Origin: Methylacidiphilum caldifontis
GTDB lineage: Bacteria > Verrucomicrobiota > Verrucomicrobiia > Methylacidiphilales > Methylacidiphilaceae
Direction of reading: 5' to 3'
DNA: 64,000 nt
Assembly (NCBI RefSeq): GCF_017310505.1
Contig: NZ_CP065957.1
Location: forward strand, 992,001-1,056,000
Part shown: in pieces, positions 1,068 to 24,611 of the stretch
Numbering within the stretch: position 1 is the first letter of the stretch
How the letters are laid out: each line of letters begins with the position of its first letter
The notes under the pieces: generated by a model
What the model saw: only the letters and a program-made list of their open reading frames with translations
What the model was told of the DNA's origin: nothing
Database searches by the model: none
Program-made: the position numbers and the translations under genes

Positions 1068-2804
1068 TTAACTTTTTAAAAGGGTCCATTGTTCTCTGGC
1101 TGCATCAATCAAGGGCTTTAATGTTTTTGAGCTGAAATCAAAAGGCAAACCTGCTGCCTGGAAAAGCTCCCTGAGCGGTTTTGATCCACCCAAAGACAAC
1201 GCATAAAGGTAACGTTCAAGGGCTGTCTTCAGGTCTTTTTTGGCTTCGATCCAGAAGGCTAATGCCCCCATTTGAGCAATGCCATATTCGATATAATAAA
1301 AAGGAATCTCAAAAATATGAAGCTGTCTGTGCCATAAATAGCGTCGGACTTCTTCATATCCCTCCCAATCCACTATTCCCCCAAAGCGGGCCATCAACCT
1401 CTCCCAAATCCGAGCACGATTCTCCCTGCTTTGATCAGGACTTGTGTAGAGTTCCTGCTGAAAGCCATCGACCGTCGCCATCCAGGGGAAAAACAGAAGG
1501 ATACCTTCGAAAAGCTTTCTATTAGCCCTTTTAAGTTCTTTTTCCGAATAAAATTCGTCTAAATATGAGGAGGCGAACAGTTCCATGGACATCGAGGCAA
1601 CCTCACAAAACTCAAGAGGAGCTGACCGGTAATCGTAAAGAAACTGTTCTCTTGCTGCCAAGGAATGAAAAGCATGTCCAGATTCATGGAGCAAGGTTTC
1701 TAGATCTCGATGTGTTCCTACGGCATTCATAAAAATAAATGGAAGACGTGCCAAGGACAGTGTACTTTGATATCCTCCTGGAGCTTTCCCTTTTCTGTTT
1801 TCCAAATCAACAAGTTTTTTCTCTCCTAAAACCTTATAAAAACTCCACAGTTTCGGATCCAGCTTCTTGAATATATTGCCGACTCTATCAAAAAGCTCTT
1901 CTGCTGTTTGAAAAGGCCTCAAAGGTTGACCCCCTTCAGGATCTACGGCAAGGTCCCACGGCTTTAATTGAACCAAACCCAGTTGCTCTTTCCTCCAATT
2001 TTCAATCTCTTTTTGCACAGGAACAACTGTCTGCTCTATAGCTTCAGCAAGTTTCAAACAGTCTTCAGGGGTATAATCGAAACGTTGATATTTCTCAAAA
2101 ATATAGCTGCGGTAGTTATCGAAACCAGCAGTTGTGGCAATCTGATTACGGAGGGAGAGCAGCTTATCAAAAATATCCTCAAAAATCTCTTTTTTTTCTA
2201 GCCTCTTATTGGCGATGATCTCCCATACTTGTTTCCTTCTTCCCCTATCCTGTTCTTCAAGGAAACGGCTTAATTGGACAAGAGTATATTCTTTGCCTTC
2301 GTATTCGGCCGTGAGCCCTCCTGAAATCTTCTGGTATTGTTGACAAAGCTTTTCTTCTTCGACTTCCCTCTGCACATTTTCTTCTCTATAAGTTTTCAAC
2401 TGGCTTAAAACTGATCTTTTGAAAACCGCATACGAAGAATCGAGAGCGTTAAAAAAAGGATTAGAGGCAAGTTGACTTAAAATAGCCATTTGCCTGGGTT
2501 TTCTCAACGGTTCGACCACCGTAATCACATAAAGATATCTTTTTTCCCTTTCCTCGTCGTCTGTCTGGCAGGTCATCGCGATATAACGCTTTGTCCTTTC
2601 CTCATCGAGTGCTTCTCTGAGTTCATCATAAAAGCCGATCCAACGTTTGAGATCTTCTACGCTATGAACATTCTGCAGCTCTTTTTGAAGCCTCTCCCAT
2701 AAAGCACATAGGTTTTTTTCCTCCAGTATATCTTTATCTGGTTCTAGGAACTGTAAGGGTTCAAAGGAAGAAAACTCTTCAAAAGCCATCTTGTTCATAT
2801 CCAT
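1068..2804 (-). CDS. pepF: M3 family oligoendopeptidase (PepF-like)
   Basis: A 578-residue metallopeptidase of the M3 family. The zinc site is HESGHAFH at roughly residue 370, and the downstream conserved segments ASMSMELFASSYLDEFY and RRYLWHRQLHIFEIPFYYIEYGIAQ supply the third zinc ligand region and the substrate tyrosines typical of M3B oligoendopeptidase F. It should cleave short peptides in the cytoplasm; there is no signal peptide. The stop of the upstream PHP-glycosyltransferase gene touches this start with no gap (2804/2805), so the two are probably co-transcribed, although no functional link is obvious. Confidence 0.9.
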   Translation of the reverse strand: MDMNKMAFEEFSSFEPLQFLEPDKDILEEKNLCALWERLQKELQNVHSVEDLKRWIGFYDELREALDEERTKRYIAMTCQTDDEEREKRYLYVITVVEPLRKPRQMAILSQLASNPFFNALDSSYAVFKRSVLSQLKTYREENVQREVEEEKLCQQYQKISGGLTAEYEGKEYTLVQLSRFLEEQDRGRRKQVWEIIANKRLEKKEIFEDIFDKLLSLRNQIATTAGFDNYRSYIFEKYQRFDYTPEDCLKLAEAIEQTVVPVQKEIENWRKEQLGLVQLKPWDLAVDPEGGQPLRPFQTAEELFDRVGNIFKKLDPKLWSFYKVLGEKKLVDLENRKGKAPGGYQSTLSLARLPFIFMNAVGTHRDLETLLHESGHAFHSLAAREQFLYDYRSAPLEFCEVASMSMELFASSYLDEFYSEKELKRANRKLFEGILLFFPWMATVDGFQQELYTSPDQSRENRARIWERLMARFGGIVDWEGYEEVRRYLWHRQLHIFEIPFYYIEYGIAQMGALAFWIEAKKDLKTALERYLYALSLGGSKPLRELFQAAGLPFDFSSKTLKPLIDAAREQWTLLKS

Positions 2805-5222
2805 TTAGTCCTCTTTAATTTTAAACATCTGCCAGAAATTTTGGAAAGCTCTATTCCAACTTCTTTCTTTTCTTATCTTTTCAGCCATTTCTATTCTCGA
2901 TTCCCATGAGAGGGGGTGATCGAGATAAAAGCTGATGGTTTCTGCCCATTCTTTTATGTCTTTAGTTTTACAAATCCTTCCCACTCCCAGCTGACTGACT
3001 AGTTCAGAAGGTCCTCCTACATCCGAAACTATTGCAGGAACCCCCGAAGCCATGGCTTCAAGAACAACATTGCCAAAAGTATCCGTTGTGCTTGGAAAAA
3101 CAAACAAAAAAGAGGAAGCATAGGCCTTGCTCAGCTCAAGACCTGTCAAAATCCCAGTAAAGATAGCTTCCGGAACAAGTTTTTGCAATTCTTCCCTAAA
3201 AGGCCCTTCCCCTACAAAGGCAACTGAAAATCGCTTTCCTTTTGCCCATAAGTAATGAGAAAGCTCAGCCAGGAAGGCCAACTCCTTCTCCTTTGAAATC
3301 CTCCCAACATAAAGAAGAACCGGCGAATCCAGTCCGTATTTTTTCCAGAACGAAGGATCAAAATAGGAAGGACTAAACATATCCACATCAATACCTCTGG
3401 GGAATAGAGCCAGTTTTTCAGGGGAGATCCCTCTTTGAATCCAACAATGCTTATAATATTCGGAATTGACCAGGATCTTGTTCAACTGTCCGTAAAACCA
3501 TTCCATGTACCTCCAAGCCAATGTTTCCATCCACGAATCATCACTCAAGAAGCGGGCATACTGGGGAAAATCGGTATGATAGATCCCCATCATAGGAATT
3601 TTAAGAATTTTCCCTATCAAAAGAGCACATAGTCCCACCGGACCCGGAGTACTGATCACAAGATGAGAAAAATCTTCTTTTTTGACATAATCCATAATTT
3701 CCAAGAAAGGAGGGAAACTTAACTTCTGCAGCTTATATTCGGGAATCTCGAACTCACCCACCGGTTCAAAATTTTTCACCGGGATATCCAACTCTTTTAA
3801 TTGACTTCTTGAAATCACCAGTTTCAAATAAGCATCTTGCTTATAGGCGGTTTTCGCCATCGCTTGGATCGTCCGAGCTACCCCATTGACATCATCAATG
3901 GTATCGGTAAACCAAGCCACCTTAATTTCAGAGAGTTCCTTGGGAAGACATCCCATATATCTGAGTGCCAGTTTTCTCAAAAAGGGCTTGTTGACAGACT
4001 GTTCAAAAAAAGCCCACAAATAGGGCATGACAGCGATCCCCAAGGGGAGAAAACCGGAGAGGGATTGAAAAGCGTCAAGATAATCTCCTTTTTCAAGCCT
4101 GGAGACAAATTGCAAAAAAAGCCTATAGGAAAGCTCGTTTACAATCTTGGATGCTATTCGAAAAGAACGGATTATGGGTTTTTCAGTTGAATTGACGATC
4201 GCATCGAGCATCTGTTTTGTTTTCGAATCGGTCAAAAAACCGATAAACTGTTTTGTTAGAGTTGATCCTTCAGTTAACCCTACGTAATTGAAAGCTTGAC
4301 CTGTCCGGATCGCTTCGGCCAAATGACCCACCCTTTCAGCGAAAGAAAAAGCTGTAGGATTTTGCCCTTTGATAAACCTCTCGGCGATCTTCCCAACGAG
4401 CTCCGCAGTCAAAGGGGCTTTTTGCTTAAGCCGACCTAGAGCAAATTTAAAAAAAGTGTTGTAAAAACCGGTAGAAACTTTCAAAGGATCTCCCATTTCT
4501 CCTTGAACTCTTCCCTCACCCCTAAACAGCGAGTCAAAAAAACCTTCAATCCCATCCCCTGCCTTTGCCTCCGTCCATGCAGAAGCAACCGAAAGTCCTC
4601 CGTGGTCGTTGGATCCTCCAACGAAAATTTTTTCATGGGGTCGGCTTACCATGGAAGCCATACCCTGCCTTTGTTCAAAATCCTCGATATGTTTGGGAGT
4701 CAATGCACCAAGACAAAGGGAAAGAATTTTTTGAGACAGGGGTTCTAATGCCCCATTACAGACTTCAAATCCTTTAAAAAGAAGGATCATTTTTTCAAAA
4801 TGATCCGTCGTGAGTTTTGAGTTTAGACTTTTCAAGGGATGTGCAACAGCATGGGGTATATTTTTTTCTACAAGGTAGCGGGAAAGCTCAAATACGTTCA
4901 AAGAGAGTTCTTTGAGTGTCTTAAAATCAAGCTCGTCAAAATGCCAAATTAAAAGATGGATTTCACAGCCATCGGGGAAAAAAGTGGATAATTCTACCCC
5001 TAAGAAAACATCCTGGTATTTTTCCATTAACTCCAAGCAACCTTCAATCCGGTTGTGATCGGTAATCGTTTTCCATCGCATTCCTTTGGATTGAAGTTTC
5101 TCATAGAGCTCTTGGGGGGGAGTGCAACTCTGGGGAAAGCCAATACGCCTAAGGACCCACTCAGAAGGTCGGTCTGAATAACTCGAATGAACATGAAGAT
5201 CAACTTTTGACCAGGATTCCAT
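2805..5222 (-). CDS. PHP-domain / GT4 glycosyltransferase fusion
   Basis: About 805 residues. The N-terminal ~250 residues are a PHP-type phosphoesterase domain (VDLHVHSSYSDRPS, then TDHNRIEGC and later HPLKSL and GGSNDHGG, giving the metal-binding histidines). The C-terminal ~400 residues are a GT-B glycosyltransferase of family GT4, with LLYVGRISKEKEL, a GEGPFREEL segment and the acidic FGNVVLEAMASGVP motif that binds the sugar nucleotide. The middle region is helical and unassigned. I prefer the ATG at 5222 because the PHP domain begins directly after it; a longer frame starting at 5273 would add 17 odd residues. It overlaps the deacetylase gene by 23 bases. PHP-GT fusions probably handle glycolipids or polysaccharides; the substrate is unknown. 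Confidence 0.82.
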   Translation of the reverse strand: MESWSKVDLHVHSSYSDRPSEWVLRRIGFPQSCTPPQELYEKLQSKGMRWKTITDHNRIEGCLELMEKYQDVFLGVELSTFFPDGCEIHLLIWHFDELDFKTLKELSLNVFELSRYLVEKNIPHAVAHPLKSLNSKLTTDHFEKMILLFKGFEVCNGALEPLSQKILSLCLGALTPKHIEDFEQRQGMASMVSRPHEKIFVGGSNDHGGLSVASAWTEAKAGDGIEGFFDSLFRGEGRVQGEMGDPLKVSTGFYNTFFKFALGRLKQKAPLTAELVGKIAERFIKGQNPTAFSFAERVGHLAEAIRTGQAFNYVGLTEGSTLTKQFIGFLTDSKTKQMLDAIVNSTEKPIIRSFRIASKIVNELSYRLFLQFVSRLEKGDYLDAFQSLSGFLPLGIAVMPYLWAFFEQSVNKPFLRKLALRYMGCLPKELSEIKVAWFTDTIDDVNGVARTIQAMAKTAYKQDAYLKLVISRSQLKELDIPVKNFEPVGEFEIPEYKLQKLSFPPFLEIMDYVKKEDFSHLVISTPGPVGLCALLIGKILKIPMMGIYHTDFPQYARFLSDDSWMETLAWRYMEWFYGQLNKILVNSEYYKHCWIQRGISPEKLALFPRGIDVDMFSPSYFDPSFWKKYGLDSPVLLYVGRISKEKELAFLAELSHYLWAKGKRFSVAFVGEGPFREELQKLVPEAIFTGILTGLELSKAYASSFLFVFPSTTDTFGNVVLEAMASGVPAIVSDVGGPSELVSQLGVGRICKTKDIKEWAETISFYLDHPLSWESRIEMAEKIRKERSWNRAFQNFWQMFKIKED

Positions 5223-16327: not shown

Positions 16328-16390
16328 ATGAAATTTGAATTTCTGCCAAATTTTTTTTCAGTTTGCAACCTTTTTCTATTCTCCTTGAGT

Positions 16391-16420
16391 TTGACTTCCT
16401 AGCCCGGCTGCAGTTATTCT
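16391..16420 (+). promoter_or_regulatory. candidate sigma-70 promoter of the mau operon
   Basis: TTGACT at 16391-16396 is separated by 18 bases from TATTCT at 16415-16420 (or 17 bases from TTATTC). Transcription would begin near 16427, just before the purine-rich GGAAAGGA at 16431-16438 that looks like the ribosome-binding site of mauB. This arrangement argues that the mauB coding region begins after about 16440 and does not extend upstream. Confidence 0.4.
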
Positions 16421-16441
16421 TAGAAAAAAGGGAAAGGACTT

Positions 16442-17479
16442 ATTATAGAAAGCTTTAAGACACTTTCTCTGCCGCCACTTTCTGCAGAGCAGATTTTCGT
16501 TGTTGCTCTTAATCGGGCATTCTTCATCGATATTCAAAACCAAAGGGTTCTAGGAATGATCGATTTAGGCTATGTTGGCAATATCGTTCTTTCAGCGGAT
16601 GCTCAATATGTGTATGCGGTAGAGAGTTTTTATAGCCGGGGAACAAGAGGCAAAAGAACCGATGTCGTTACTCTCTACGACATGAAAAATCTTTCAGTGG
16701 TTGATGAAATTGAAATTCCTCCGAAACGCTTTCTCTGCGTCATTAAAAAGTACACCCAAGCCTTGAGCAATGACGGCCGTTTTCTGCTTGTATGCAATAT
16801 TACTCCTGCCAGTTCGGTAACGGTTGTCGATCTGCATAAAAAGAAATTCGTCCGGGAAATTGCTACTCCCGGTTATGTTTTGCTTTATCCCTATGAAAGT
16901 CGTCGATTTGCCATGTTCGGACAAGAGGGAAGCCTTTTGCTTTTCTCTCTCAACGATGAAGGACATTTGCAACAGAAAAACCGGATTCCAGCAGGTTTTT
17001 CTCTGAATGATCCTTTGTTTGAACATGGGGTTTATCTTAAAAGAACAAACCGGTATTGCTTTATCTCCTATGAAGGTATGATTAAACTCTTGCAGCTTTC
17101 TGGTCCAACGGCACAATGGGAGAAAAGTTGGGATATAACTCAAGGAAGCGACTACAGGCCTTGTGGCTGGCAGCTTCTCAGCTGTGATTCCCTGGAAAAT
17201 AATCTTTATATCCTCATGCACAAGGCTGGAAAAGACAAACACAAAGAAAGTGGGAAAGAAGTTTGGGTAGTGGACTTAGTGGATCAAAAAGTCAGTAGGA
17301 AAATCGAGTTGGAAAGGCCGGTCGACTCAATTCATATTGTAGGTAAAGAAAAAACCTATCTTTGCGGTTTAAATCATAAGGGATATCTCGATATTTATGA
17401 TCTTCAAAAGGTAGGCCGAACTGCTTTTATAGAAGAACTTGGAGAAGGAGCCTTTCTGCTTTTAAGCTATGAATTTTAA
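16442..17479 (+). CDS. mauB: methylamine dehydrogenase heavy chain, no regular start codon
   Basis: Seven-bladed propeller chain of the tryptophan tryptophylquinone (TTQ) amine dehydrogenases. Similarity to MauB is strong from QRVLGMIDLGYVGNIVLS through FYSRGTRGKRTDVVTLYD, YRPCGWQLLSCD, LYILMHKAGKDKHKESGKE and the end. The first ATG (16556) would remove some 37 residues that still resemble MauB (SAEQIFVVALN...FFIDIQ), so I place the start at the first in-frame near-cognate codons, ATT 16442 or ATA 16445, after the purine stretch GGAAAGGA. In-frame TAG codons at 16400 and 16421 block any longer protein. As read, the chain has no signal peptide, although MauB works in the periplasm. Unusual initiation, gene decay or a sequence error are all possible. 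Confidence 0.75.
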   Translation: MIESFKTLSLPPLSAEQIFVVALNRAFFIDIQNQRVLGMIDLGYVGNIVLSADAQYVYAVESFYSRGTRGKRTDVVTLYDMKNLSVVDEIEIPPKRFLCVIKKYTQALSNDGRFLLVCNITPASSVTVVDLHKKKFVREIATPGYVLLYPYESRRFAMFGQEGSLLLFSLNDEGHLQQKNRIPAGFSLNDPLFEHGVYLKRTNRYCFISYEGMIKLLQLSGPTAQWEKSWDITQGSDYRPCGWQLLSCDSLENNLYILMHKAGKDKHKESGKEVWVVDLVDQKVSRKIELERPVDSIHIVGKEKTYLCGLNHKGYLDIYDLQKVGRTAFIEELGEGAFLLLSYEF

Positions 17480-18029
17480 GCCGATGATCGATCCTCTGAT
17501 CCATAATGGGCTTGTTTTTTTCCTAACAATTCTCTTTTTTTACTCTTCAATTCAAAAATTTGTCCATCACCCCTATTTTGTATTATCCCTAGAGAACTAT
17601 CGGATTGTTCCCGCTCCTTTTGTAAAGCCTCTTGCTTTACTCATTCCCTTTGTTGAAAGTTTAGCTGCAGGCTGCTTATTTTTCCCTCAATTGAAAGTTT
17701 ATGGGCTTTGCCTTGTCCTTGTGCTTCTTGGTCTTTTTTCCCTAGTGATAACAATCAAACTTTTCCAGGGCGAGGATTCAATCGACTGCGGATGCTTCGG
17801 TCCAGCTTTAAAACAAAAGCTTTCGTGGATACTCTTAGCCAGAAACTTCGTTTTGTCTTGCATTGCAGCCCTCTTATTTTTGCACCAATCCAACCGCGCC
17901 CTCACACCCTATGACCAACTGTTATCTCTATGGATAGCCGTCGTTTTATTCCTTAGTTTATCAGCTTGGAATCAACTAATCAGTAACCAGTCGCTTCCCC
18001 TTTTGAAAAAAAAGAGCTTTTATGAATGA
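17469..18029 (+). CDS. mauE: methylamine utilization protein MauE (DoxX-like membrane protein)
   Basis: 186 residues, four hydrophobic segments (about residues 12-30, 50-70, 75-95 and 120-170 region), and the cysteine pair in GEDSIDCGCFGPAL on a loop, the MauE signature. MauE with MauD is needed for maturation and stability of the small TTQ subunit, probably by handling disulfides in the periplasm. It overlaps mauB by 11 bases and mauD by 8, so translation is probably coupled. A second ATG at residue 6 is possible. The order mauB-E-D-A is the one known from Paracoccus and Methylobacterium. Confidence 0.88.
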   Translation: MNFKPMIDPLIHNGLVFFLTILFFYSSIQKFVHHPYFVLSLENYRIVPAPFVKPLALLIPFVESLAAGCLFFPQLKVYGLCLVLVLLGLFSLVITIKLFQGEDSIDCGCFGPALKQKLSWILLARNFVLSCIAALLFLHQSNRALTPYDQLLSLWIAVVLFLSLSAWNQLISNQSLPLLKKKSFYE

Positions 18030-18651
18030 ACTCGTTGTCCCTCTGGTTGTTTTTGCTTGGATTATGATCGGTTTTTTGGCCTTAGGCCTTTTTGCCCTGG
18101 CCCGGCAAATCGGGATCCTTCATGAAAGAATTACCCCGCTTGGAGCACTCTCTTTTTCGGGAGGGATAAAAATTGGAGAAAAAATAAGACTTTTTGAGTT
18201 AAATGATGTCGATGAAAGCCGTCCTCCCATCCGCATTGGAGGAGAACACCCTCTTAAAAAAGACTGCCTCATTTTGTTTGTTTCACCACGCTGTCCTCTA
18301 TGCAAAAAGCTTCTGCCTGGCATCAGCTCCTTTAGCCGGTTGTTAGACCACCTTGATCTTATTTTTGCAAGTGACGGAGAAGAAATCGCCGAACATAAAA
18401 AATACAGGAATTTAAAATTTTTGGCCCCATTTCCCTATGTCGTTTCAAGGGAACTTGGGATATACCTTGGAGTAGCTACCCTGCCCTACGCTATTTATAT
18501 TAATGCCGAAGGCAGGGTCATGGCCAAAGGACTCATCAACAGTCTTGAACAGCTTGAAGGGTTAATCGATCATGTACACAATCTAAAGAATGGAAAAGGA
18601 ACCTTTAGAACCACCTATACCCAGGAAGAACAAAACACTCCTCTGAATTAG
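18022..18651 (+). CDS. mauD: methylamine dehydrogenase accessory protein MauD (thioredoxin-like)
   Basis: 209 residues. One N-terminal membrane anchor (VVPLVVFAWIMIGFLALGLFAL) is followed by a thioredoxin-like domain with the redox pair CPLCKK in LILFVSPRCPLCKKLLPG and the later cis-proline-like turn GVATLPYAIYIN. MauD is a periplasm-facing thiol oxidoreductase/isomerase needed to form the six disulfides of MauA. The gene overlaps mauE by 8 bases; 16 bases separate it from mauA. Confidence 0.9.
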   Translation: MNELVVPLVVFAWIMIGFLALGLFALARQIGILHERITPLGALSFSGGIKIGEKIRLFELNDVDESRPPIRIGGEHPLKKDCLILFVSPRCPLCKKLLPGISSFSRLLDHLDLIFASDGEEIAEHKKYRNLKFLAPFPYVVSRELGIYLGVATLPYAIYINAEGRVMAKGLINSLEQLEGLIDHVHNLKNGKGTFRTTYTQEEQNTPLN

Positions 18652-18667
18652 CCAATATCTAGTTGCT

Positions 18668-19225
18668 ATGAAAGGGATTGATCGGCTTATTGAGTTTTTC
18701 TGCCGCAGCCTTGCCTTGAGGCTTCCCAGGAGAAGTTTTATTGCCACATTTTCCCTTTTCCTTGGGGCTTCTTCAAAGATCGTTGCTTTTCCCGTTGAAC
18801 ACTCTAGCCGTTCAACAGAAGGGAGGGAAGAGAAAAAAGAAAAAAATGAAGCTTCAACTCAAGATCCTACTGCTTCCTGTTCCTACTGGAGATATTGCAG
18901 TATTGACGGGTTTCTATGCAGCTGTTGTGGAGGAGGAGTCACTTCATGTCCTCCTGGGACTTTTCCCTCTCCCACTCATTGGGTGGGCAGTTGTAGAAAT
19001 CCCGAAGATAATAAACATTATCTTATTTCCTACAGGGATTGCTGCGGTAAAGGATACTGTGGACGGTGTTATTGCCGCCAAACCGACGAGCACGAAATGC
19101 CTGTGTACCAACTCAATCGAAACAATGATACAATCTGGTGCTTTGGCGCTCCCAACATGATGTATCACTGCACCGGGGCAGCGGTTCTGGGTCCTGCCCA
19201 GAATCATCCAGAAACAGAAAGATGA
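18668..19225 (+). CDS. mauA: methylamine dehydrogenase light chain (TTQ subunit)
   Basis: 185-residue precursor. The leader carries a twin-arginine-like motif (PRRSFIATFSLFLG), as in other MauA precursors exported folded. The mature part is cysteine-rich with YWRYCSIDGFLCSCCGG, GYCGRCYC and MMYHCTGAAVLG. The tryptophans that form the TTQ cofactor are Trp105 (in THWVGSC) and Trp157 (in DTIWCFG); Asp80 (SIDG) corresponds to the active-site Asp. The CSCCGG and GRCYC pattern fits MauA better than aromatic amine dehydrogenase AauA. The enzyme oxidises methylamine to formaldehyde and ammonia in the periplasm. TTQ formation normally needs the dihaem enzyme MauG, whose gene is not in this window. Confidence 0.95.
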   Translation: MKGIDRLIEFFCRSLALRLPRRSFIATFSLFLGASSKIVAFPVEHSSRSTEGREEKKEKNEASTQDPTASCSYWRYCSIDGFLCSCCGGGVTSCPPGTFPSPTHWVGSCRNPEDNKHYLISYRDCCGKGYCGRCYCRQTDEHEMPVYQLNRNNDTIWCFGAPNMMYHCTGAAVLGPAQNHPETER

Positions 19226-19269
19226 CAAATAATTACGGCACATTGGACCGCTAAAAAAGATTTTTTTAG

Positions 19270-19731
19270 ATGAGAATTACTGCTCGGTCACTACTCCTAA
19301 TGATTTGTATCACCTCAAATTCTTTATTTGGCCTGTCCAAGGAACATGAGCTTTACTTGCTCCATTGTTCAGGTTGTCATGGATTAAAGGGAGAAGGAGT
19401 AGTCGGAGTGTCGCCACAAATTAATCGGATCATCGGCTATTTTCTTGCCAATAGAGAGGGAAGAAAGTACATCATAAAGCTTCCTGGTATCGCCCTTGCC
19501 CCTTTGAGTGATGAGCAACTTGCGGATCTTCTTAACTGGGTCGTCTCCCAATTTAGCTCGCCGTCTTTTTCTTTTCAGAAATTCACAAAAGAGGAGATTT
19601 CGAAAGAAAGAAAAGAGCCTCTTTGGGATATAGAAAAAGAAAGAAAAGAACTTTTAAAAAGACTTCCTGGAAATAGAGTTTTAAGTCGGTCCTGGGAACA
19701 ATTCATTAGTTCTGCTTCACCTAAACAATAG
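19270..19731 (+). CDS. secreted monohaem cytochrome c next to mauA
   Basis: 153 residues with a signal peptide and one haem site, CSGCHGLKGEG, at residues 33-37. The core resembles a small class I cytochrome c (GVSPQINRIIGYFLAN...LSDEQLADLLNWVVSQF) and a charged, helical C-terminal extension of about 50 residues follows. No methionine occurs after the haem site, so the usual sixth ligand is missing, and there is no second histidine in the core. It occupies the place where mauC (amicyanin) stands in classic mau operons and may accept electrons from methylamine dehydrogenase; that is inference from position. Confidence 0.8.
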   Translation: MRITARSLLLMICITSNSLFGLSKEHELYLLHCSGCHGLKGEGVVGVSPQINRIIGYFLANREGRKYIIKLPGIALAPLSDEQLADLLNWVVSQFSSPSFSFQKFTKEEISKERKEPLWDIEKERKELLKRLPGNRVLSRSWEQFISSASPKQ

Positions 19732-19913: not shown

Positions 19914-19999
19914 GCCCTCGTGGCGGAATGGCAGACGCACAGGACTTAAAATCCTGTGAGCTTAAAAAGCTCGTGCGGGTTCGAGTCCCGCCGGGGGCA
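19914..19999 (+). tRNA. tRNA-Leu (anticodon TAA)
   Basis: Acceptor arms GCCCTCG (19914-19920) and CGGGGGC (19992-19998) pair with one G-T, discriminator A at 19999. The anticodon stem ACAGGA/TCCTGT encloses CTTAAAA, giving anticodon TAA. A long variable arm (GAGCTTAAAAAGCTC) and the T-arm GCGGGTTCGAGTCCCGC are class II features as expected for leucine. CCA is not encoded. A T-run follows the gene. Confidence 0.95.
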
Positions 20000-23412: not shown

Positions 23413-23979
23413 ATGCATAAATTTGTTTCTTTTGTTTTTTACACTACAATCAACTCCTTAATGGGCATAGCATTGGTGGCCATTCTTTGTTCCTGCAGCC
23501 CGTTATCTGGTCGTTATATAAAAGAAGCAGAAGGCAGTCCCTCTTTTAGTCAGATAAAAAAGAACCCTAACCTTTACAAAGGCAAAATGGTAATTTTAGG
23601 AGGAACAATCGCTCAAATCAAAAATCTGAAAAATAAAAGCTACATTGAAGTTATTCAAAATCCTTTAGATAATACAGATTATCCTTTAAATACCTCAAAA
23701 TCCCAGGGAAGATTTCTAGCTGTCAGCTCCCGTTTTATCGATCCACAGGTTTACAGCGTAGGCAAAAGGATTACGATTGCGGGCCGGATCGTTGGGGGTC
23801 AACAAGGGGTAATTGGACAAAGAACTTATGTTTATCCCTTGATCTCGGCTTCCCAGATTCACCTCTGGCCTTCTACTTCGGCAGCTGAATATGACTATTG
23901 GGCTGCAGGCATGGGTATGGGCCCATTTGTTGGTCCAGCTTGGGGATGGGGAGGATACGGCCCAGGATTTTTCTGGTAG
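23413..23979 (+). CDS. slp: Slp-family outer-membrane lipoprotein (first copy)
   Basis: 188 residues. The signal peptide ends at LCSCSPLS, a lipobox with the lipidated Cys. The body has the Slp signature: SFSQIKKNPNLYKGKMVILGGTIAQ, then IEVIQNPLD, GRFLAVSSRFIDPQVY and RITIAGRIVG. Slp proteins are outer-membrane lipoproteins induced by carbon starvation or stationary phase in enterobacteria; their action is poorly known. The C-terminus is a Gly/Trp/Pro-rich tail (GPAWGWGGYGPGFFW). A second copy follows 71 bases downstream. Confidence 0.88.
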   Translation: MHKFVSFVFYTTINSLMGIALVAILCSCSPLSGRYIKEAEGSPSFSQIKKNPNLYKGKMVILGGTIAQIKNLKNKSYIEVIQNPLDNTDYPLNTSKSQGRFLAVSSRFIDPQVYSVGKRITIAGRIVGGQQGVIGQRTYVYPLISASQIHLWPSTSAAEYDYWAAGMGMGPFVGPAWGWGGYGPGFFW

Positions 23980-24050
23980 TTTTTTTCTTGCACTTCCTGT
24001 CAAAACATGGGAAGAACAGAGCATCTGAAAAAGAATGCTTCGGCTGCATA

Positions 24051-24611
24051 ATGAAAGCCTTTAGATTTGATTTTAGGATTACCCAGTTTTTCCCCTTTCT
24101 CCTTTTTTTTGGATTGATTTCCTGCAGCCCTTTTTCAAGCACAGTTAAAAAAGAGACCCGAGGACAGCCCTCTTTTTCCCAGGTTTTAAGGAACCCTCAA
24201 GCCTACAAGGGAAGAGTGGTGATGTTTGGCGGAACGATAGCTCAAACAAAAAATTTAAAGAACATCACACTCATCGAAGTCATTCAAAAGCCTTTGGATA
24301 GTTCAACCGACAGACCCCTGGATACAGACAGAAGTGGAGGCAGGTTTCTTATTGCTTCAACCAAATTTCTCGATCCCTCAATCTATAGCAAAGACAGGGC
24401 CATTACGGTAGTAGGCAAGGTGCGGGGCGTGCAGCCGGGAGTTATTGGTAAAAGATCCTATAGCTATCCGGTGATTGGAGCACTGCAGATTCATCTCTGG
24501 TCGGAATCCTATTATTACCCGGGTTACTACTATCCTGGATATTTTTGGGGACCTGGTTGGGGGCCGGGCTGGGGCTGGGGTTGGGGTTGGGGTCCTGGTT
24601 GGTGGTGGTAA
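24051..24611 (+). CDS. slp: Slp-family outer-membrane lipoprotein (second copy)
   Basis: 186 residues from the ATG at 24051, which begins the signal peptide (FFPFLLFFGLISCSPFSS, lipobox ISCS). The frame is open further upstream but only over the end of the first copy. The body repeats the first Slp almost step for step: SFSQVLRNPQAYKGRVVMFGG, IAQTKNLKN, IEVIQKPLD, RFLIASTKFLDPSIYS. The tail is more extreme, with repeated GPGWG/GWGWG units ending WWW. Tandem duplication is clear. The Gly-Trp tail may lie at the membrane surface; that is inference. Confidence 0.88.
   Translation: MKAFRFDFRITQFFPFLLFFGLISCSPFSSTVKKETRGQPSFSQVLRNPQAYKGRVVMFGGTIAQTKNLKNITLIEVIQKPLDSSTDRPLDTDRSGGRFLIASTKFLDPSIYSKDRAITVVGKVRGVQPGVIGKRSYSYPVIGALQIHLWSESYYYPGYYYPGYFWGPGWGPGWGWGWGWGPGWWW

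Follow-up and report, generated by a model that had tools for sequence, protein, structure and literature searches.

A MauG-less, cytochrome-bearing operon encoding a predicted TTQ-type amine dehydrogenase in Methylacidiphilum caldifontis

Introduction

How is the tryptophan tryptophylquinone (TTQ) cofactor of an amine dehydrogenase completed when no mauG gene accompanies the structural genes? MauG is the one established TTQ-completing enzyme and has been studied almost only in Paracoccus. The question is raised by an operon of five plus-strand genes (mauB, mauE, mauD, mauA and a gene for a monohaem cytochrome c) of Methylacidiphilum caldifontis, whose complete genome comprises 2.25 Mb. The operon occupies positions 16445-19731 of the DNA stretch analysed here (64,000 nucleotides; positions 992,001 to 1,056,000 of contig NZ_CP065957.1, assembly GCF_017310505.1), referred to below as the window. 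With moderate confidence, we propose that it encodes a TTQ amine dehydrogenase that dispenses with MauG and has the adjacent cytochrome as a dedicated partner of MauA; this estimate covers the statement up to the partnership and has been discounted for the last step, the part played by the cytochrome, which is undecided.

The presence of this operon in the genus has been known since 2008, when mauBEDA-moxG (Minf_1997-2001), five genes in the order seen here, was reported in M. infernorum V4 (Hou et al. 2008, PMC2474590). The part of that publication consulted records amicyanin, MauF and MauL as missing and mentions a distant MauG homologue elsewhere in the genome (Minf_1905) as possibly relevant; it also states that methylamine did not support growth, and a reviewer doubted that the enzyme is a methylamine dehydrogenase (MADH). 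The AUA start codon, the leaderless MauB and the absent Met of the cytochrome, all described below, do not figure in the same part of that account (PMC2474590).

Results and Discussion

Organization and conservation of the operon

The following features were recognized (positions are those of the window):

16433..16438, plus strand: AAAGGA, Shine-Dalgarno-like site of mauB, 6-7 nt 5′ of an ATA codon in all five Methylacidiphilum genomes
16445..17479, plus strand: mauB, large subunit, seven-bladed beta-propeller, 344 codons if read from the ATA, no signal peptide (PF06433, 1.7e-49, 169 bits)
17469..18029, plus strand: mauE, membrane accessory protein (PF07291, 2.1e-28, 100 bits)
18022..18651, plus strand: mauD, thioredoxin-like accessory protein with a CPLC motif (TIGR02661, 8.6e-38, under the equivalog cut-off)
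18668..19225, plus strand: mauA, TTQ small subunit with a twin-arginine (RRSF) leader (PF02975, 6.8e-47, 159 bits)
18980-18982 and 19136-19138, plus strand: codons of the TTQ tryptophans of mauA, W105 and W157, respectively
19270..19731, plus strand: monohaem c-type cytochrome, CSGCH at residues 33-37 (PF00034, Cytochrom_C, 26 bits)

The preliminary description of this locus had read the gene order as mauB-E-D-A followed by a monohaem cytochrome c in place of mauC, and the Pfam assignments bear this out. The same order, together with two upstream neighbour genes, is kept in all five Methylacidiphilum genomes, one of which (G001) carries the operon on a contig of 11,635 bases. Outside the genus, mauB was found in none of the 55 other members of the family or order that were searched. 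The MauB and MauA proteins of the five genomes are 66-77% identical, and the ratio of nonsynonymous to synonymous substitution rates (dN/dS), where a pair or gene allowed scoring, comes to about 0.05-0.2. The conserved gene positions and these low ratios indicate that the five genes are maintained, and are the product of neither chance nor decay.

Class of the enzyme

A scan with the small subunit yielded 80 related clusters, in most of which mauBEDA precedes a gene for a member of the operon cytochrome's family and mauG is absent. The MADH clusters of Methylobacillus, Methylophaga and Paracoccus share with the M. caldifontis operon the order mauB-E-D-A, the TTQ tryptophans and the fold, but mauG lies beside mauA in the MADH clusters examined, and both of those checked for mauF have it upstream, whereas the M. 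caldifontis operon has no gene for MauG, MauF or amicyanin. In Methylobacillus, Methylophaga and Thauera mauG follows mauA and no such cytochrome is present, and mauG adjoins mauA in all 14 mauA-positive Methylophilaceae sampled.

When 114 small subunits were arranged in a tree, those linked to mauG formed one clade with the MADH of the Protein Data Bank (3c75; support 100/100). The M. caldifontis MauA lies outside it, and is also separated from the clade of the Alcaligenes faecalis aromatic amine dehydrogenase (AADH; split support 98/92); few alignment columns were available, so the deeper forks of the tree are weak. The NCBIfam equivalog cut-offs for MADH were missed by both subunits (TIGR02658, 182 against 454 bits; TIGR02659, 169 against 197 bits). 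All 114 sequences retain the equivalents of Trp57, Trp108, Asp32 and Asp76; TTQ formation is therefore expected in the M. caldifontis MauA. A small subunit with fourteen cysteines was considered as a marker of AADH and discarded, as it also occurs in 14 of 20 mauG-linked small subunits.

The A. faecalis AADH (PDB 2AGY family) provides the most similar small subunit of known structure (148 bits, against 146 for MADH). The layout of the operon, BEDA and a monohaem cytochrome without mauG, is AADH-like: the cluster of a close relative in Castellaniella (L085) has BEDA and a Met-less cytochrome but lacks mauG, and the A. faecalis aau cluster itself is reported to include a gene for a monohaem cytochrome while mauG is missing from it (Chistoserdov 2001). 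The M. caldifontis system differs from that of A. faecalis in the position of its MauA outside the AADH clade, in a genome without any azurin-family protein and in a MauB without signal peptide.

The operon contains every gene by which the class is delimited here (mauB, mauA, mauE, mauD and a Met-less c552-type cytochrome) and, as judged from these sequence comparisons, is a typical member of a MauG-less, cytochrome-bearing class of TTQ dehydrogenases distinct from MADH. The preliminary description had presented it as a reduced methylamine dehydrogenase operon; this view is not upheld, since MauA lies outside the MADH clade and mauBEDA with a cytochrome, lacking mauG, mauC and mauF, is the usual layout of the class.

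The scan also recorded two genomes with a second mauB-mauA pair that lacks E, D and the cytochrome, besides a full cluster (L138 and L149 in G061; L014 and L048 in HR39). A 2.0 Mb genome from the class that includes G086 contains a degraded mauA remnant with four stops (L148 / L205, G413:C1:1656488) and is also without a Met-less cytochrome.

Search for MauG, MauF and cupredoxins

The preliminary description had noted the lack of mauG, mauF and amicyanin at the locus, and left two ways out: a MauG gene at another locus, or a different route to TTQ. None of the three genes adjoins the operon. The whole genome, searched family by family, contains no PF00127 cupredoxin (the amicyanin/azurin family) and no match to a Methylobacillus MauF, the latter search having had no positive control there; nor was a complete mauG-containing cluster found elsewhere in it.

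A single protein of the MauG superfamily (PF03150) is encoded approx. 70 kb upstream of the window (near 921 kb of the contig). Its match to solved cytochrome c peroxidases is worth 343 bits and that to MauG 98 bits, and the distal ligand position of its second haem is taken by Met, as in the peroxidases and in all scoreable PF03150 proteins of the Methylacidiphilaceae. This position is occupied by Tyr in every aligned MauG encoded beside mauA. Replacement of that residue by His, in MauG (Y294H) as in its relative BthA (Y463H), removes the near-infrared bis-Fe(IV) feature (PMC6405878). Orthologues of the Met-type peroxidase occur in sister genera without mau genes, and no PF03150 protein was found in genome G001, which has the operon. 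Because of the axial Met, the orthologues in mau-free genera and the absence from G001, we conclude that MauG is not encoded elsewhere in the genome, which points towards the second way out; to judge from its axial residue, the sole member of the superfamily, the counterpart of the possibly relevant homologue of the M. infernorum paper, is an ordinary cytochrome c peroxidase. More widely, 11 of 47 mauA-positive genomes lack any PF03150 protein, among them Modicisalibacter luteus, Novosphingobium beihaiensis and Marinimicrococcus flavescens.

Linkage of the cytochrome to mauA

A profile of the cytochrome family, built from 35 members, detected full-length relatives in 55 of 75 mauA-positive genomes. 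Sixteen of the 20 genomes without such a relative have mauG beside their only mauA, and the other four, a group of Burkholderiaceae, have MauG-like di-haem genes approx. 9 kb from mauA; a divergent Met-less cytochrome is present in L190, the one of the four that was inspected. Among 337 genomes of one class, the full-length cytochrome is present in exactly the 12 that have an intact mauA; the only other match, a weak one in a mauA-free genome (G588), was rejected as a paralogue, since it retains the Met. Additional cytochrome copies adjoin additional mauBA copies (four in one genome), and where two clusters coexist in G570, one contains a MauG-type gene and the other the cytochrome.

The profile also matched the N-terminal cytochrome c domain of a 752-residue protein of M. 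caldifontis with nine CxxCH motifs and a PF13447 multihaem domain of the hydroxylamine-oxidoreductase type (L191, G000:C1:1340000-1348000, frame 2128-4383, minus strand); a similar match, in a frame of 717-752 residues, was obtained in all five Methylacidiphilum genomes.

Haem site of the cytochrome

Among solved structures, the closest relative of the family is Thermus thermophilus cytochrome c552 (1C52), which gives 94 bits with the family profile and shares the fold and C-terminal extension of the operon's protein, and the model of the operon cytochrome (predicted local distance difference test score, pLDDT, 89.8) has 1c52 as its top fold match. The two differ at the Met69 loop of c552, Met69 being the distal haem ligand: the family lacks approx. 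18 residues there, so that the profile skips the loop and Met69 falls in a gap. CxxCH is invariant save for its variable residue, and the family alignment contains no other conserved His or Met; the distal Met that marks class I c-type carriers is thus missing throughout the family, while a second cytochrome present in some clusters retains it. With the distal Met loop deleted, the haem of the operon cytochrome is probably five-coordinate, and could activate O2 or H2O2.

Proposed mechanism

We suggest that MauB and MauA would form a periplasmic MauB2A2 dehydrogenase for primary amines, predicted to belong to the same MauG-less class as the A. faecalis AADH, beside which the true MADHs would stand as one distinct clade. 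MauA would be exported by the twin-arginine translocation (Tat) system, and MauE and MauD would form or shuffle its disulfides. TTQ would be completed without MauG, the cytochrome acting as the dedicated partner of MauA: its open haem may activate O2 or H2O2 and so mature TTQ in place of MauG, after which electrons would pass to other periplasmic cytochromes. The likeness to MauG would lie in haem-based completion of TTQ; MauG is a di-haem protein (PF03150) with a His/Tyr haem, whereas the operon cytochrome has one haem and belongs to another family. In MADH, the TTQ tryptophan undergoes a first hydroxylation before MauG acts (PMC7876137), and this step is a further possible role of the cytochrome.

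Start codon and export of MauB

The preliminary description had placed the beginning of the operon at 16442, a position that precedes any ATG, GTG or TTG of the mauB frame. The first such codon is found only at 16556, inside the propeller. The sole conserved candidate is an ATA at 16445, 21 nt upstream of which the frame is closed by a TAG (16421). Each of the five species has ATA GAA 6-7 nt 3′ of an AAAGGA-like site, although the DNA farther upstream cannot be aligned, and the frame counted from ATA has 344 codons in every one of them. Codons 2-37, which precede the first ATG, show dN well under dS, indicative of purifying selection, and in the model of MauB the first propeller strands lie at residues 16-40, with pLDDT of about 95 from residue 11. 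Together, the conserved ribosome-binding site and ATA, the constant length, the selection and the modelled strands make AUA, conserved in all five species, the most likely start codon.

AUA is a very weak start in model bacteria, and this speaks for initiation elsewhere, either at the internal ATG (16556) or, by way of a frameshift, in a different frame farther upstream, the ATA then being coincidental. We regard such a start as unlikely: the site, the ATA and the GAA are conserved within otherwise unalignable surroundings, the frame itself is shut just upstream, and the residues before 16556 are conserved and structural.

The MauB proteins of relatives open with a hydrophobic leader, whereas those of Methylacidiphilum open at the mature part. 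An upstream signal peptide was sought, and an in-frame leader-like segment, MKFEFLPNFFSVCNLFLFSLSLTS (16328-16423), with two TAG codons after it, was found; it was attributed to chance and not to read-through because the other four species do not have it. Since MauA of M. caldifontis has a twin-arginine leader and the genome contains tatC, MauB may possibly be exported as a passenger of Tat-exported MauA, an arrangement that sits uneasily with disulfide formation in the periplasm by MauD and MauE.

Alternative explanations

The most serious alternative makes the cytochrome a dedicated electron acceptor, as amicyanin is for MADH, with TTQ formed by another enzyme or autocatalytically. Several observations lend it weight: the genome has no cupredoxin acceptor and an acceptor would show the same linkage to mauA, both of which also count against a maturase; in addition, the cytochrome has the c552 fold, and there is one cytochrome per mauA copy. 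Further points tell against the maturase in their own right. The loss of the Met is read from sequence, and a different ligand is possible. The choice between mauG and the cytochrome is essentially one split in the MauA tree, a single evolutionary event, so the co-occurrence counts overstate the independent evidence. Nor is the choice strictly exclusive, as in a Burkholderiaceae group (L058 and L190) two di-haem genes of MauG type coexist with a Met-less, though divergent, cytochrome; in L190 (G083:C13), an AADH-related cluster, the cytochrome gene stands beside the two di-haem genes in tandem, and the idea of strict mutual exclusion as two independent events was dropped on this account. (One of these di-haem proteins has the axial Tyr; the other, as judged by eye, has Phe-Phe-Asp there.) On the other side, a family of pure electron carriers would not usually lack the distal Met throughout, the second, Met-bearing cytochrome of several clusters is better suited as acceptor, and in A. 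faecalis the acceptor is azurin. We tentatively favour completion of TTQ by the cytochrome, at somewhat less than an even chance; the acceptor role is almost as probable, and what is left of the probability falls to other functions.

Two other explanations carry far less weight. The operon might be the decaying or inactive remainder of a true methylamine dehydrogenase operon from which mauG, mauF and mauC have been lost. A MauB without canonical start or signal peptide would agree with this, as would the failure of M. infernorum to grow on methylamine (PMC2474590). The dN/dS values and the identical frame length in all five species speak against decay, which the preliminary description had also considered; mauA and mauB transcripts have been reported in M. 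fumariolicum SolV (PMC5623727, PMC3404531), and the MauA is not in the MADH clade, which makes this explanation very improbable. Scarcely credible, finally, is completion of TTQ by the peroxidase upstream of the window. It is the only PF03150 protein of the genome, and a MauG homologue was named by Hou et al. at a separate locus of M. infernorum (PMC2474590), but its axial residue and bit scores are those of a peroxidase, and it is found in mau-free sister genera and not in the operon-bearing G001.

Neighbouring genes

A tRNA-Leu (TAA) gene lies directly 3′ of the operon (19914-19999). Further downstream, 23413-23979 and 23898-24611 are adjacent genes for Slp-family outer-membrane lipoproteins with Gly/Trp-rich C-termini, likely tandem duplicates.

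Implications

The layout of the operon is ordinary for its class, and it is the class that raises the question of TTQ synthesis without MauG; the oddities specific to the genus are the leaderless MauB and the apparent AUA start. To judge from the survey, most clusters close to this operon are MauG-independent, some in hosts without any member of the MauG superfamily, and a single gene that almost invariably adjoins mauA stands out as the candidate for the TTQ step. For annotation, methylamine use should not be deduced from such operons, and in Methylacidiphilum the name "MauG" should give way to peroxidase.

If the cytochrome is the maturase, a protein of approx. 130 residues with one c-type haem would suffice to make TTQ, a simpler device than MauG; if it is the acceptor, TTQ would form with neither MauG nor the cytochrome. 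In its widest form, which we put forward as a speculation with rather less chance of being right than either role taken alone, the open-site monohaem c552-type family would be the TTQ-forming enzyme of the non-MADH dehydrogenases, an alternative to MauG and possibly the older route, accompanied in Methylacidiphilum by an AUA-initiated, leaderless MauB that would travel as a passenger of Tat-exported MauA.

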